Assembly (NCBI RefSeq): GCF_022919095.1
Contig: NZ_CP095073.1
Span: forward strand, 1,674,001-1,738,000
Reading direction: 5' to 3'
Origin: Halobacillus salinarum
Lineage (GTDB): Bacteria > Bacillota > Bacilli > Bacillales > Halobacillaceae
Length of the DNA: 64,000 nucleotides
Shown: positions 43,284 to 47,443 of the stretch, one piece after another
Numbering within the stretch: the first letter of the stretch is position 1
Layout: each line of letters opens with the position of its first letter
Program-made: the position numbers and the translations under genes
The notes under the pieces: model-generated
Database searches by the model: none
What the model was told of the DNA's origin: nothing
What the model saw: only the letters and a program-made list of their open reading frames with translations

Positions 43284-43382
43284 CTTATAGAAAAAATTTG
43301 TTTGCAAATCCAATGATCTTTTAAGATTGATTTAAGGTTTGCCATTAAGGAAAGGTTAGAGAATAAGATGGGAGGTAACAAA

Positions 43383-44015
43383 ATGGATTCCTTCATCAGA
43401 AGTGACCAATATAATTTAATTAAAGCCCAGGCGCACCGTTTGATTAGAAGTCATTCCAGCGTTAACGATTCCAGTGTTATGGAAGCCGTAAAATCGGTCT
43501 CTTTAGAGAAGGTTCTTCAATCCTTCTCTTCTTTATCTCCAGAAGAAAAGGAACTAATTGATCATATCTCGGTCATTGAAGATCAGGAAGATGCGATTTT
43601 ACTGTTATCTAGATTGAAGCAGTATGTCATTGAATTTCCTGATTTGACAGAGAACCACCTCAAGAAACTTTTTCCAAAAGTTAAAAAGCTCCAGCACCCT
43701 GACTTAGATGAAATAGATAAAAAAGCGACCTCTTATTTAGGGTGGAACGATTATGGATCGAATCGAAAATACTTGGTCGTCCCTTTTCAAGGTGAATTAA
43801 TTGGCTTAAAAGGAACATTTACTCAATCAAATACTAAAGGAATATGTACCATTTGTTCGGAACAAGAAAAGGTGGGAATGTTTACTACTACAGTGATGAA
43901 TTCAGCGCAGAGTGTAGTGCGGAGAGGCAATTATATTTGCCAGGACAGCGAACTATGTAATCAGAATTTAACTGATTTAACTAATCTCCACCATTTTGTC
44001 AAGCTTATGAGCTGA
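43383..44015 (+). CDS. FusB/FusC-type EF-G-binding protein
   Basis: A 210-residue two-domain protein: helical N-terminal domain (1-130) and a C-terminal treble-clef zinc finger with Cys155, Cys158, Cys186 and Cys192. FusB-type proteins bind elongation factor G and release it from stalled ribosomes, giving fusidic acid tolerance. Chromosomal homologues are common in Bacillaceae and their native role is less clear. The ATG at 43383 follows GGGAGGT; 43368 is inside the RBS. Confidence 0.85.
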   Translation: MDSFIRSDQYNLIKAQAHRLIRSHSSVNDSSVMEAVKSVSLEKVLQSFSSLSPEEKELIDHISVIEDQEDAILLLSRLKQYVIEFPDLTENHLKKLFPKVKKLQHPDLDEIDKKATSYLGWNDYGSNRKYLVVPFQGELIGLKGTFTQSNTKGICTICSEQEKVGMFTTTVMNSAQSVVRRGNYICQDSELCNQNLTDLTNLHHFVKLMS

Positions 44016-44181: not shown

Positions 44182-44889
44182 ATGTCTGCGAAACAAAGGA
44201 AGCTTCCTTTATATGAGCAAATAAAGAACAAAATGCTGATGAAGATTAATCATGGAGATTGGACTCCAGGAGAAAACATACCTTCTGAAAGCCAGTTGAT
44301 GGAAAGGTTTAATGTCAGCCGTACAACAATCAGACAGGCGCTTCGTGACCTTGCTCATCAAGGTATTATTGAAACCCGAAGAGGCGCTCCTTCCAGGGTA
44401 AGTATCTCTCCTAAGGGGAAACCTCGTTCACAAGGGGTTTTCCATCATGAAATGGGAAATGAGATGACGGTGAAAGTGCTGAGAACAGGCGTAGTGACAA
44501 ACTATGAAGCCTTAAGACGGCTGAATCTTGGTAAATCAGAGCAAGTCTTTTTTTTGGAAAGACTAAGGCTGGCAGATAGGAAACCGATTGCCTATCAACA
44601 GCTGTTTCTTCCGTTTGAGATAGGGAAAGTCGTTAAAGATTACGCAGAAATTGAATTTGATATTTTTCCTAAATTAGGCCGTGAGGATATTCATTACTCC
44701 ACCATTAAAGAACAAGTAAATGCTGCTGTTGCGACTCAGTATGAAGCAGATTTATTGGGCATCTTTCCGGGCGAACCATTGGTTGACATCGATCGGTTAA
44801 CTTTGGGCATAGAGGGCAGCCCTATCGAGTACAGTCGTACCAAATACAGAACAGATTCATTTCATTACAAAGTCGAAATAGGCGGATAG
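44182..44889 (+). CDS. GntR/HutC-family regulator (UTRA domain)
   Basis: A 235-residue regulator with an N-terminal winged helix (P-S-E-S-Q-L-M-E-R-F-N-V-S-R-T-T-I-R-Q-A-L near 34-54) and a C-terminal UTRA effector domain ending with the typical R-T-K-Y-R-x-D motif. UTRA ligands are small catabolites such as sugars, histidine derivatives or phosphonates. It lies directly upstream of the M24 enzyme and FAD oxidoreductase, so it probably controls them through the element at 44901-44929. Confidence 0.9.
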   Translation: MSAKQRKLPLYEQIKNKMLMKINHGDWTPGENIPSESQLMERFNVSRTTIRQALRDLAHQGIIETRRGAPSRVSISPKGKPRSQGVFHHEMGNEMTVKVLRTGVVTNYEALRRLNLGKSEQVFFLERLRLADRKPIAYQQLFLPFEIGKVVKDYAEIEFDIFPKLGREDIHYSTIKEQVNAAVATQYEADLLGIFPGEPLVDIDRLTLGIEGSPIEYSRTKYRTDSFHYKVEIGG

Positions 44890-44900
44890 TCATTCTCTTA

Positions 44901-44929
44901 TTGTAACAAGTTTTATCTTGTTGTAACAT
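44901..44929 (+). promoter_or_regulatory. Promoter and candidate GntR operator before the M24 gene
   Basis: TTGTAACA occurs twice exactly 20 bp apart (44901-44908, 44921-44928), and AACAAG-N6-CTTGTT forms a dyad inside. The same bases read as -35 TTGTAA, 17 bp, -10 TAACAT. A regulator bound here would cover the promoter. Assignment to the upstream GntR protein is inference. Confidence 0.5.
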
Positions 44930-44965
44930 GTGTGTAAATCCATAATTTATTCAGGAGGCAGACAT

Positions 44966-46180
44966 ATGGGAAAATTAACGAGTATTCGACACGATAAAAC
45001 GCAGATTGACCTTGTAAGGATGCGTAAATATCGGTTAGGTAGAGTGAGAGAGCAATTAAAAAAACTTGGGTATGGCGGAATTGTCATTTTTGATCCAGTA
45101 AATTTGAGGTATGCTACAGGAAGCAGAAACATGCAAGTCTTTATGTTAAGAAATCCTGCCCGTTATGTGTATATTCCTGTTGAAGGCCCGGTCACCTTGT
45201 TTGATTTTCCAAATTGTGAGCACCTTTCTGAAGGAATAGAAACCATTGATGAAGTAAGGCCGGCGATCACATTATCTTATGTAGCCTCAGGAAATCATTT
45301 ATATGAAAATGCGAAGCAGTGGGCTGAGGAAATTTCCGATTTAGTAACGAAGCATGGAGGAGGGAACAAAAAATTAGCGATTGATTATGTTCCCTCAATA
45401 GGAGCGATTGAGCTTGGTCATTTAGGAGTCGAAGTGGTCGATGGGCAGGAACCCATTGAGCATGCCCGCTCAATTAAATCTCCTCAGGAAATAGAAGCAA
45501 TGAAAATCTCGGTGCGCACGGCAGAGGAAGGCATGATCCGTATGAAGCAGGCATTGGAGCCTGGTATTACAGAAAATGAATTATGGTCTCACTTACATCA
45601 GACGAACATCAGTCATGGTGGGGATTATGTGGAGACCAGGCTGCTGAATTCCGGCCACCGCACCAACCCCTGGTTCCAGGAATGCAGCGATAAAGTGATC
45701 CGCGAAGGTGAGCTTGTAGCTTTTGATACCGATATGAATGGACCTTTTGGCTTTTTTACCGACATCAGCCGCACATTTTTCTGTGGAGATGGAACACCTA
45801 CTGATGAACAGAAGCGACTTTATCAGACGGCCTATGAACAAATCCAATATAATATCGAACTGTTAAAACCAGGCATGACATTCAGGGAGTATGCAGAAAA
45901 GAGCTGGGAGATCCCTGACGAGTTTTTTGCTAACCGCTATTTTACCGTAGCGCATGGTACTGGACTGAGCGGTGAATATCCGTATATTGTTTTCCCACAG
46001 GACTTTGAGGAAAAGGGGTATGATGGGGTAATTGAAGAAAATATGGTTCTTTCGGTAGAGAGCTATATCGGTGCAGAAGGTGGTAAAGAAGGAGTTAAAT
46101 TAGAAGAACAGCTGCTAGTCACTAAAGATGGAGTTGAGAATTTTTCAGACTTTCCATTTGAAAAAAAGCTTATGGAATAA
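44966..46180 (+). CDS. DddP-like M24-family metalloenzyme
   Basis: A 404-residue protein with a creatinase-type N-terminal domain and a pita-bread M24 domain. Metal ligands are Asp254, Asp256, Asp266, His330, Glu365 and Glu380. Their spacing equals that recalled for the DMSP lyase DddP (295, 297, 307, 371, 406, 421) with a constant offset of 41, and Tyr325 matches DddP Tyr366. The DddP catalytic Asp377 is Gly336 here, so DMSP lyase activity is doubtful. Peptidase, creatinase-like or another lyase activity is possible. The ATG at 44966 follows CAGGAGG. Confidence 0.85.
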   Translation: MGKLTSIRHDKTQIDLVRMRKYRLGRVREQLKKLGYGGIVIFDPVNLRYATGSRNMQVFMLRNPARYVYIPVEGPVTLFDFPNCEHLSEGIETIDEVRPAITLSYVASGNHLYENAKQWAEEISDLVTKHGGGNKKLAIDYVPSIGAIELGHLGVEVVDGQEPIEHARSIKSPQEIEAMKISVRTAEEGMIRMKQALEPGITENELWSHLHQTNISHGGDYVETRLLNSGHRTNPWFQECSDKVIREGELVAFDTDMNGPFGFFTDISRTFFCGDGTPTDEQKRLYQTAYEQIQYNIELLKPGMTFREYAEKSWEIPDEFFANRYFTVAHGTGLSGEYPYIVFPQDFEEKGYDGVIEENMVLSVESYIGAEGGKEGVKLEEQLLVTKDGVENFSDFPFEKKLME

Positions 46181-46198
46181 CATTTAACTAGATGTAAG

Positions 46199-46230
46199 GC
46201 TGCCTGTAATCGACTGCAGGCAGCTTTTTA
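46199..46230 (+). terminator. Terminator or attenuator between M24 and FAD genes
   Basis: GCTGCCTG/CAGGCAGC stem, 10-nt loop and T5. It lies only about 20 bp before the next start codon, so the FAD gene may be transcribed by read-through. Confidence 0.8.
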
Positions 46231-46250: not shown

Positions 46251-47365
46251 ATGAAGGATTGTGTCGTCATAGGAGCGGGGATTTTAGGCGCTTCTACTGC
46301 ATACCATTTAGCAAAAAAGGGAATGAAAGTGGCTTTAGTGGATAAAAAACATACCGGACAAGCGACAGAAGCCGCGGCAGGGATTATTTGTCCATGGCTG
46401 ACGAAGCGGAAAAACAGCTCCTGGTATCGTTTAGCAACGCAAGGAGCAAAGTACTATCCGACCCTCATTGATATGCTTAGTGAAGACGGAGAAGTGGAGA
46501 CCGGCTATTCTAAAGTAGGGGCGATTAATATTTTCACGACCGAAGAGATGCTGGATCGGAAGTACAAAGTCGCAGAAGAAAGAAAGAAGGATACGCCTGA
46601 AATAGGTACTCTTTCGAAGCTTACAGTTGATGAGACACAACAGCTCTTTCCTCTATTATCAGGAGAATATAATGCTCTCCACATCAGTGGGGCAGCGAGG
46701 GTAAATGGGGCAGCCTTAAGAGATGCACTCATTAGAGGAGCTGCTAAATATGGCTGTGAATTTATCCAGGGTGAAGCATCTTTCATCAAAGAAAACGATG
46801 ATGATGTAAAAGGGGTATATGTAAACCGTGAGGCTCTATTGGCTGAGAAAACCATTGTGGCAGGTGGCGTTTGGGCAAAACAACTATGTGAGTCCATAGG
46901 AATCAGCGTTGATATCTCCTCCCAGAAAGCTCAGATTCTTCACCTTCAACTCCCAAATCAAGATACGAATCAATGGCCTGTTGTCATGCCTCCTTACGGG
47001 CAGTACTTTTTAGCCTTTGGTTCAGGGAAGCTTGTAATCGGAGCTACTCAGGAAAATAATACTACCCATACGAGAGTGACCATGGGGGAATTCATGAAAT
47101 CATGGAAAAAGCCCTGAAGGTAGCTCCAGGTTTCGCTGATTGTACATACGTGGAGACAAAGGTGGGGTTTAGACCTTTTACACCAGGTTCTTTACCCGTT
47201 GCCGGAAAAATTCCCGGGTATTCCAGTCTTTATGTGGCAAATGGATTGGGTGCTTCTGGACTTACAAGTGGTCCTGTTTTAGGGAGAGAACTTGCAGCAC
47301 TCATTACAAACGCCCCATTAAAGCTTGAAATGAATGATTATGATCCCGGTGCAGCCCTGATATAA
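46251..47365 (+). pseudogene. FAD-dependent DAO-type oxidoreductase, frameshifted
   Basis: Two overlapping frames (46251-47117 and 47102-47365) together give a complete 371-residue DAO-family amine/amino-acid oxidoreductase: V-I-G-A-G-I-L-G at the N-terminus, and G-x-R-P-F-T-P and G-L-G-A-S-G-L-T near the C-terminus. The break is at a G5 run (47084-47088); a sixth G restores M-G-G-I-H-E-I-M-E-K across the join. Relatives oxidise sarcosine, glycine or D-amino acids. It follows the M24 gene and probably acts in the same pathway. Either a sequencing slip or a real inactivating or phase-variable change. Confidence 0.88.
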
Positions 47366-47443
47366 AGGATCACTTTTTCTATTTCATCGAATGAATCCTT
47401 AACAAAAAGCGAAAGCTATACTTGTTAGGGAGGTGCCCAAATT

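Follow-up and report, generated by a model that had tools for sequence, protein, structure and literature searches.

The question raised by this locus is which reaction an enzyme built like DddP might carry out when the proposed catalytic Asp of DddP is missing. The locus was analysed as part of a 64,000-nucleotide stretch (the window) of Halobacillus salinarum, NZ_CP095073.1 positions 1,674,001–1,738,000 (GCF_022919095.1), and its features are collected in Table 1. The ATG at 44966 is preceded by an AGGAGG sequence. A longer M24 frame is possible from the GTG at 44930, but this start is unlikely because it falls within the putative operator.

Table 1. Features at the M24 locus; positions are those of the window.
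Feature	Position	Strand	Basis
GntR/UTRA transcriptional regulator	44182..44889	+	Pfam GntR and UTRA above cut-off
Putative operator site 1, near-palindrome of AACTTRTTGYAAYAWGTT	44895..44912	+	2 mismatches
Putative operator site 2, 20 bp after site 1	44915..44932	+	2 mismatches
DddP-like M24 enzyme, 404 aa	44966..46180	+	ATG start; translation, alignments, AlphaFold model
Intrinsic terminator	46196..46229	+	Hairpin of −20.7 kcal/mol, z −5.16, 0/200 shuffles as stable, then TTTTT
DAO-type oxidase, frame interrupted	46251..47117	+	288-aa frame

The original prediction held that the protein keeps the six metal ligands of DddP at their spacing, along with its Tyr366, and has Gly336 at the position of Asp377. 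The translation bears this out: Asp254, Asp256, Asp266, His330, Glu365, Glu380 and Tyr325 all stand where they were placed, Gly336 replaces Asp377, and Arg54, Phe59 and Arg62 are also present. The DddP residue numbers of the prediction match those of PMC4108388 for RdDddP, where Asp295, Asp297, Asp307, His371, Glu406 and Glu421 are given as ligands and Asp377 and Tyr366 as candidate bases, Tyr366 being proposed as the alternative. According to PMC5395565, a Trp and a Tyr of DddP hold the sulfur while an Asp takes the alpha proton.

Pfam recognised M24 (PF00557, 114.7 bits against a cut-off of 23) and Creatinase_N in the protein, and an AlphaFold model of the monomer had a mean pLDDT of 92.3. 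The M24 domain and the pita-bread fold place it in the M24 superfamily. When the PDB was searched with phmmer, four DddP sequences came out on top (292–301 bits), followed by prolidases at 63 bits or less. The model superposed on DddP with Z 49.5–49.7 and rmsd 1.6–1.7 over 400–402 residues at 37–38% identity; Z was at most 36.1 for prolidases and 33–34 for DoeA and creatinase (creatinase 33.3–33.7), the latter being a match of fold only. DddP is thus far closer than any prolidase (301 vs 63 bits, Z 49.7 vs 36.1). We take the protein for a cytoplasmic dinuclear-metal pita-bread enzyme, with iron as the probable metal.

The stretch around Gly336 aligns by phmmer with RlDddP free of gaps (HGTGLSGEYP against HGVGLCDEWP), and its register is fixed by two of the aligned PDB chains, the mutants Y366A and D377N (4s00 and 4s01). 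Hence, Gly336 lies opposite Asp377, as claimed, and no neighbouring residue substitutes for the Asp in the sequence alignment. Glu337, which follows, corresponds to Glu378 of DddP and is invariant in the Gly clade described below, in the other Asp rows and in DddP proper. All six ligands were kept in 107/107 aligned rows (the single outgroup row left out). Since this metal site is intact throughout and Gly marks a supported clade, Gly336 is not a chance replacement.

The likeness to DddP (RlDddP 4rzy/4s00/4s01, RdDddP 4b28) therefore covers the whole fold, the six-ligand site, Tyr366, Glu378 and the HGxGLxxE[WY]P frame, which has no indels. Unlike DddP, the protein has Gly for Asp377, Phe for Trp95, Arg for Thr90 and Arg for His98, so that only Tyr325 is kept of the Trp/Tyr pair that holds the sulfonium group and Trp95 is replaced by Phe59. 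The sulfur-holding Trp is presumably Trp95, which agrees with the conservation of Trp in the aligned rows. The NCBIfam DddP model (NF043017) gave 380.3 bits against a curated cut-off of 600, and in the tree the protein lies in a separate clade (100/96) outside DddP proper. These results agree with the view of a DddP sister without the proposed catalytic Asp, and in the absence of that residue the reaction is probably a different one.

The relatives were gathered from several sets. A match at 1e-60 was found in 14 of the 44 family genomes searched; 53 loci in named genomes and 17 genomes behind chosen loci gave further relatives. Among 369 genomes from the class of a gammaproteobacterium, 20 had a match (9 above the DddP cut-off), and 12 of the 181 plasmid records with a match were taken into the analysis. 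Thinning at 88% identity reduced the alignment from 108 to 70 rows. A first tree of these 70 rows was rooted with an outgroup, and a second was built from 66 rows, without L001, L097, L126 and L128 and with columns 335–338 removed. Even with the motif columns out, a single branch of the 66-row tree (support 100/96) separated the rows with Gly at 377 from all others; in the rooted tree the same clade is a set of 30 rows (SH-aLRT 98). Gly is present in 30/30 of these thinned rows, of which 8 are from Bacilli (support 100) and 22 from Proteobacteria (99), the hosts being halophilic members of both. The designation as a Gram-positive sister enzyme thus holds for the Bacilli but not as an exclusive label.

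Residues were compared between the 30 Gly-clade rows, 22 other rows with Asp and 16 DddP-proper rows (positions as protein/DddP). Position 336/377 is Gly in 30, Asp in 22 and Asp in 16 rows, respectively. At 54/90 the Gly clade has Arg in all 30, the other Asp rows have Thr 9, Arg 6, Ser 4, Ala 2 and one other residue, and DddP proper has Thr 15 and Ser 1; Arg54 is accordingly also found in 6/22 Asp-bearing non-DddP rows. Position 59/95 is Phe or Tyr in 29 Gly-clade rows and Asn in one, against Trp 17, Phe 4 and Met 1 in the other Asp rows and Trp in all 16 of DddP proper. At 62/98 the counts are Arg 30; His 21 and Arg 1; and His 16. At 52/88 they are Gly 30; Asp 15 and Gly 7; and Asp 16. The combination of Gly336, Arg54, an aromatic residue at 59 and Arg62 occurred in 67/68 Gly-clade rows, the remaining row having Asn at 59. 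From these counts, the substrate-facing residues were replaced as a set with the metal site unchanged. None of the 30 Gly-clade rows departs from Tyr325 or Glu337, and 27/30 have an acidic residue at 348, as do 14/38 Asp rows; position 343 is His in 21/22 proteobacterial Gly-clade rows and Tyr or Phe in Bacilli. Going by this conservation, the acidic residue 348, His343, Tyr325 or Glu337 could act as an alternative base.

Two further Gly-type sequences may be noted. A divergent alphaproteobacterial row outside the clade (L097, the same gene as L165) represents a second change of Asp377 to Gly; it keeps Trp95 and His98, while Tyr366 is replaced by Ile and residue 378 is Gln. A 106-residue fragment at a contig end of an actinobacterial (Egibacter) MAG (L073:2905-3222) carries the N-terminal Gly-clade signature GSRNMQVFMLRNPAR and is 71% identical to the 404-residue protein, though too short for placement in the tree. 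Either contamination or a transfer between phyla may account for it.

Betaine-type transporter parts (OpuAC SBP or permease, and BCCT; ATPases left out) were counted around the M24 genes. Such a part lay within 3 kb in 33/46 Gly-state proteobacterial loci, 5/21 Bacilli loci (L023, L024, L035, L038, L039) and 1/17 Asp-state loci, and at 4–7 kb in 5/46 and 1/21 of the first two groups; the 46 loci include the non-clade L165 (45 without it), and the loci are not independent, since many are from Chromohalobacter or Halomonas species and three are near-identical rhizobial plasmids. No betaine-type transporter part was present within 3 kb in 16/21 Bacilli loci. OpuAC adjoins the M24 gene in both phyla, and Pfam confirmed OpuAC and BCCT in representatives. 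The closest PDB match of the Salsuginibacillus SBP was OpuAC 2b4l, which we take to be a B. subtilis protein.

A HalD-like (PF23169) Fe/2OG gene was adjacent in 37/46 Gly-state proteobacterial loci (L165 has none) and in 1/17 Asp-state loci. The encoded protein has HFD at its likely iron motif. By the motif rule, HFD is the sign of a hydroxylase rather than a halogenase, so the protein fits a hydroxylase better; solved lysine hydroxylases were marginal matches to it (E 0.12). A search of the family genomes for HalD-like genes gave 0/44, but the controls were also missed by the same search. No MttB partner was found elsewhere in the 44 family genomes (0/44).

Some Asp-bearing relatives outside DddP proper have comparable surroundings. 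Those of Rhizobium and Paraburkholderia stand beside GbcA-like Rieske oxygenases (389–410 bits of 670), and that of Parasedimentitalea stands beside MttB-like and DMGDH-like genes. The 404-residue protein resembles these relatives in sequence (47–50% identity to L145, L147 and L146), in the six ligands and in having a methylated-amine neighbourhood, whereas they keep Asp377 and Trp95 and have other partner enzymes. As read from gene content, the common theme of these neighbourhoods is methylated ammonium compounds, and the neighbours of the M24 gene point to betaine-type osmolytes. The osmolyte link that had been suggested for this gene is thus strengthened by the OpuAC and BCCT genes near it.

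On a plasmid of R. leguminosarum (L145), the Asp-bearing M24 gene directly follows genes for a GbcA-like Rieske oxygenase and a reductase, with 4-hydroxyproline epimerase and proline/glycine betaine ABC genes in the vicinity. By its gene content, this locus looks like one for hydroxyproline-betaine catabolism in which the M24 step has no assigned role. Enolase-family genes near rhizobial and Pseudomonas copies were considered for a link to proline-betaine epimerases, which was dropped as they gave no betaine assignment; the best PDB matches were of muconate-cycloisomerase type for the L104 gene and of talarate/galactarate-dehydratase type for the L106 gene. In Halomonadaceae, genes for a CoA-acylating methylmalonate-semialdehyde dehydrogenase (L150:6443-7924, 657 bits; L152:9175-10671, 673 bits; cut-off 448.5) adjoin a Gly-type M24 gene and a HalD-like gene. 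This arrangement hints at 3-ammoniopropionate as the substrate in that lineage; because it is confined to one lineage, the malonate-semialdehyde route is kept as a lead and not as the main reading.

The original prediction had also named a GntR/UTRA regulator as partner, and here the evidence was favourable. In 20/21 Bacilli loci the gene immediately before the M24 gene is a GntR homologue, and two sites of the type AACTTRTTGYAAYAWGTT (up to 4 mismatches), 20–21 bp apart and 44–101 bp before the start, were found in 21/22 Bacilli regions (window included), several of these loci being from closely related species. The sole region without the tandem putative operator is L036, which is also the exception without a GntR gene anywhere in its 17-kb locus. 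It is this conservation across loci that speaks for the operator, and not the frequency of the pattern, which within the window is at chance level (2 matches, with as many in 23/100 shuffles; 4 matches at 3 mismatches, 11/100 shuffles). On these grounds, the GntR/UTRA protein is likely a dedicated regulator of the M24 gene. A wider regulon was considered, and no further target was supported: on both strands of the own genome at up to 1 mismatch the reversed control gave 5 matches and the pattern itself 6, two of which are the M24 sites. A possible weak −35 (TTGTAA, 44901–44906) and −10 (TAACAT, 44924–44929) with a 17-bp spacer overlap both sites; they were read by eye and are absent from the promoter scan.

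A hairpin comparable to that after the M24 gene was found within about 35 bases of the gene end in 8/17 other Bacilli loci. No strong hairpin was present in the three Bacilli loci with OpuAC directly downstream, nor in several loci without OpuAC. On this evidence, the M24 gene of Bacilli seems mostly to form a substrate-induced module by itself. The region 43368–44015, immediately before the GntR gene, encodes an EF-G-binding (FBP/FusB-like) protein (111–117 bits against fus cut-offs of 375–450), and frames with a similar start were seen by eye in L021, L026 and L030, where they precede the M24 gene by about 4 kb.

The DAO-type oxidase that had been put forward as a partner did not stand up. 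After some 280 codons its reading frame is interrupted, the C-terminal part going on in another frame (46251–47390), and this may be either a real pseudogene or an assembly error. No DAO homologue was found by tblastn (E 1e-6) in the 21 other Bacilli loci that carry the M24 gene, while DAO homologues (1e-50) are present in 44/44 family genomes, against 14/44 for the M24 gene. The partnership was rejected because of the strong terminator between the two genes, the broken frame, the absence from those loci and the ubiquity in family genomes.

The own genome encodes five further M24 proteins, none with the sixth Asp ligand. L001 and L002 are Xaa-Pro-peptidase-like (325 bits of 393 and 265 of 630), and L003 and L004 are methionine aminopeptidases above cut-off; in all four, Gly or Val stands in place of the sixth ligand and the column of Gly336 holds His. 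The fifth, L005 (G000:C1:723903-724532), of which part was scanned, is a separate DoeA-like M24 protein whose ligand positions carry other residues; the 404-residue protein, by contrast, keeps the ligands.

With a probability of roughly 45%, we favour the reading that the enzyme is a substrate-induced dinuclear-metal hydrolase which cleaves a C–N bond of an imported zwitterionic methylammonium (betaine-type) osmolyte. The osmolyte would enter through BCCT/OpuAC-type transporters and bind the dedicated GntR regulator, so that the promoter would be freed from repression at the two operator sites. Arg54 and Arg62, probably from the partner subunit, would hold the substrate carboxylate, the onium group would lie near Tyr325 and Phe59, and a metal-bound hydroxide would hydrolyse the C–N bond. 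That the two Arg residues reach the partner's active site we infer from the DddP dimer, by which residues 52–62 lie in the relevant domain. On chemical grounds, hydrolysis of a C–N bond is preferred to other reactions, since a metal-bound hydroxide would be available, the base proposed for the beta-elimination of DddP is absent and two invariant Arg residues have been gained. In Proteobacteria, the enzyme would be coupled to the HalD-like Fe/2OG hydroxylase and would feed or follow the oxidative breakdown of a methylated amine.

An enzyme that has lost Asp377 may still be a lyase of DMSP, or of a DMSP analogue, acting through Tyr325, Glu337 or Glu348 as another base; we regard this as rather unlikely. 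The conservation of these positions would allow it, and carriers of the OpuAC/BCCT type can also carry DMSP. The title of a 2026 paper (PMC13270143) refers to DMSP import by BCCT transporters, and PMC4108388, as noted, names Tyr366 as an alternative base. Against it stand the loss not only of Asp377 but also of the Trp conserved in 16/16 DddP-proper rows, and the low score with the DddP model. Near the Gly-clade genes there was also no match to the alcohol dehydrogenase that adjoins dddP in L143 (presumably acuI-like), but this is a weak point, as such a match is also missing around the remaining Asp-state loci, among them L142.

Two readings from elsewhere in the superfamily also have to be weighed against betaine-type C–N hydrolysis. 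One is a creatinase- or ectoine-hydrolase-like enzyme for creatine, ectoine or a relative, rather than for a quaternary ammonium compound. DoeA and creatinase share the fold and are osmolyte-type C–N hydrolases, and creatinase binds the carboxylate of its substrate with an Arg from the N-terminal domain that faces the partner. We consider this reading distinctly unlikely, since the DoeA models TIGR02993 and NF038259 gave 41.8 of 613 and 48.6 of 575 bits, the own genome has its separate DoeA-like protein, and the neighbouring transporters are of quaternary-ammonium type. An ordinary Xaa-Pro dipeptidase or aminopeptidase is very unlikely. In its favour, the protein has M24 and Creatinase_N domains, relatives are annotated as 'Xaa-Pro peptidase family protein', and the pita-bread fold and five metal ligands are shared with Xaa-Pro dipeptidase and aminopeptidase P (M24B). 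However, the protein has the sixth Asp ligand (Asp256) and, after HGxGL, Gly-Glu for the His-Glu of M24B, thus lacking the second His and differing in both respects from the four metal-ligand-bearing paralogues; structural alignments with M24B gave 18–25% identity, and Xaa-Pro peptidase models at most 66.3 bits against cut-offs of 393–630. DddP, by a wide margin the nearest fold, is described as having no Val-Pro activity (PMC5395565).

Beyond the preferred hydrolase reading for this one enzyme, we suggest tentatively, at rather less than even odds, that the clade embodies a third chemistry on the DddP scaffold: Arg-lined M24 hydrolases of the C–N bond of betaine-type osmolytes, without the DddP base, inducible and standing as a single gene in halophilic Bacilli, linked to HalD-like Fe/2OG hydroxylases in Proteobacteria, and hidden under the names 'Xaa-Pro peptidase' or dddP. 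No name for the family was found in the largely open-access literature on DddP, M24 and betaine catabolism. Should the enzyme turn out to break down a nitrogen osmolyte, a step of methylated-amine catabolism that has no assignment would become directly testable.

The clade also bears on gene surveys, which may count its members as dimethyl-sulfide producers, since DddP is familiar as a marine enzyme that gives off this gas. In one study, dddP made up about 65% of bacterial ddd genes in ocean samples (PMC10686828), and survey cut-offs for DddP have been set at E below 1e-70 (PMC5395565) or at least 40% identity (PMC6309047, PMC10686828). The 404-residue protein matches RlDddP at about 1e-88 (in a database different from that of the survey) and is 45–47% identical to L121, L134 and L135, all above the NCBI DddP cut-off, though 37–38% identical to RlDddP. 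Such cut-offs can thus be passed by the Gly clade, although the surveys' own reference sets may differ. PMC6309047 argues from 'DddP homologs' in Halomonas; when six Halomonadaceae genomes were searched here, all 13 matches were of the Gly type. The four-residue signature (377, 90, 95, 98) separates the groups.
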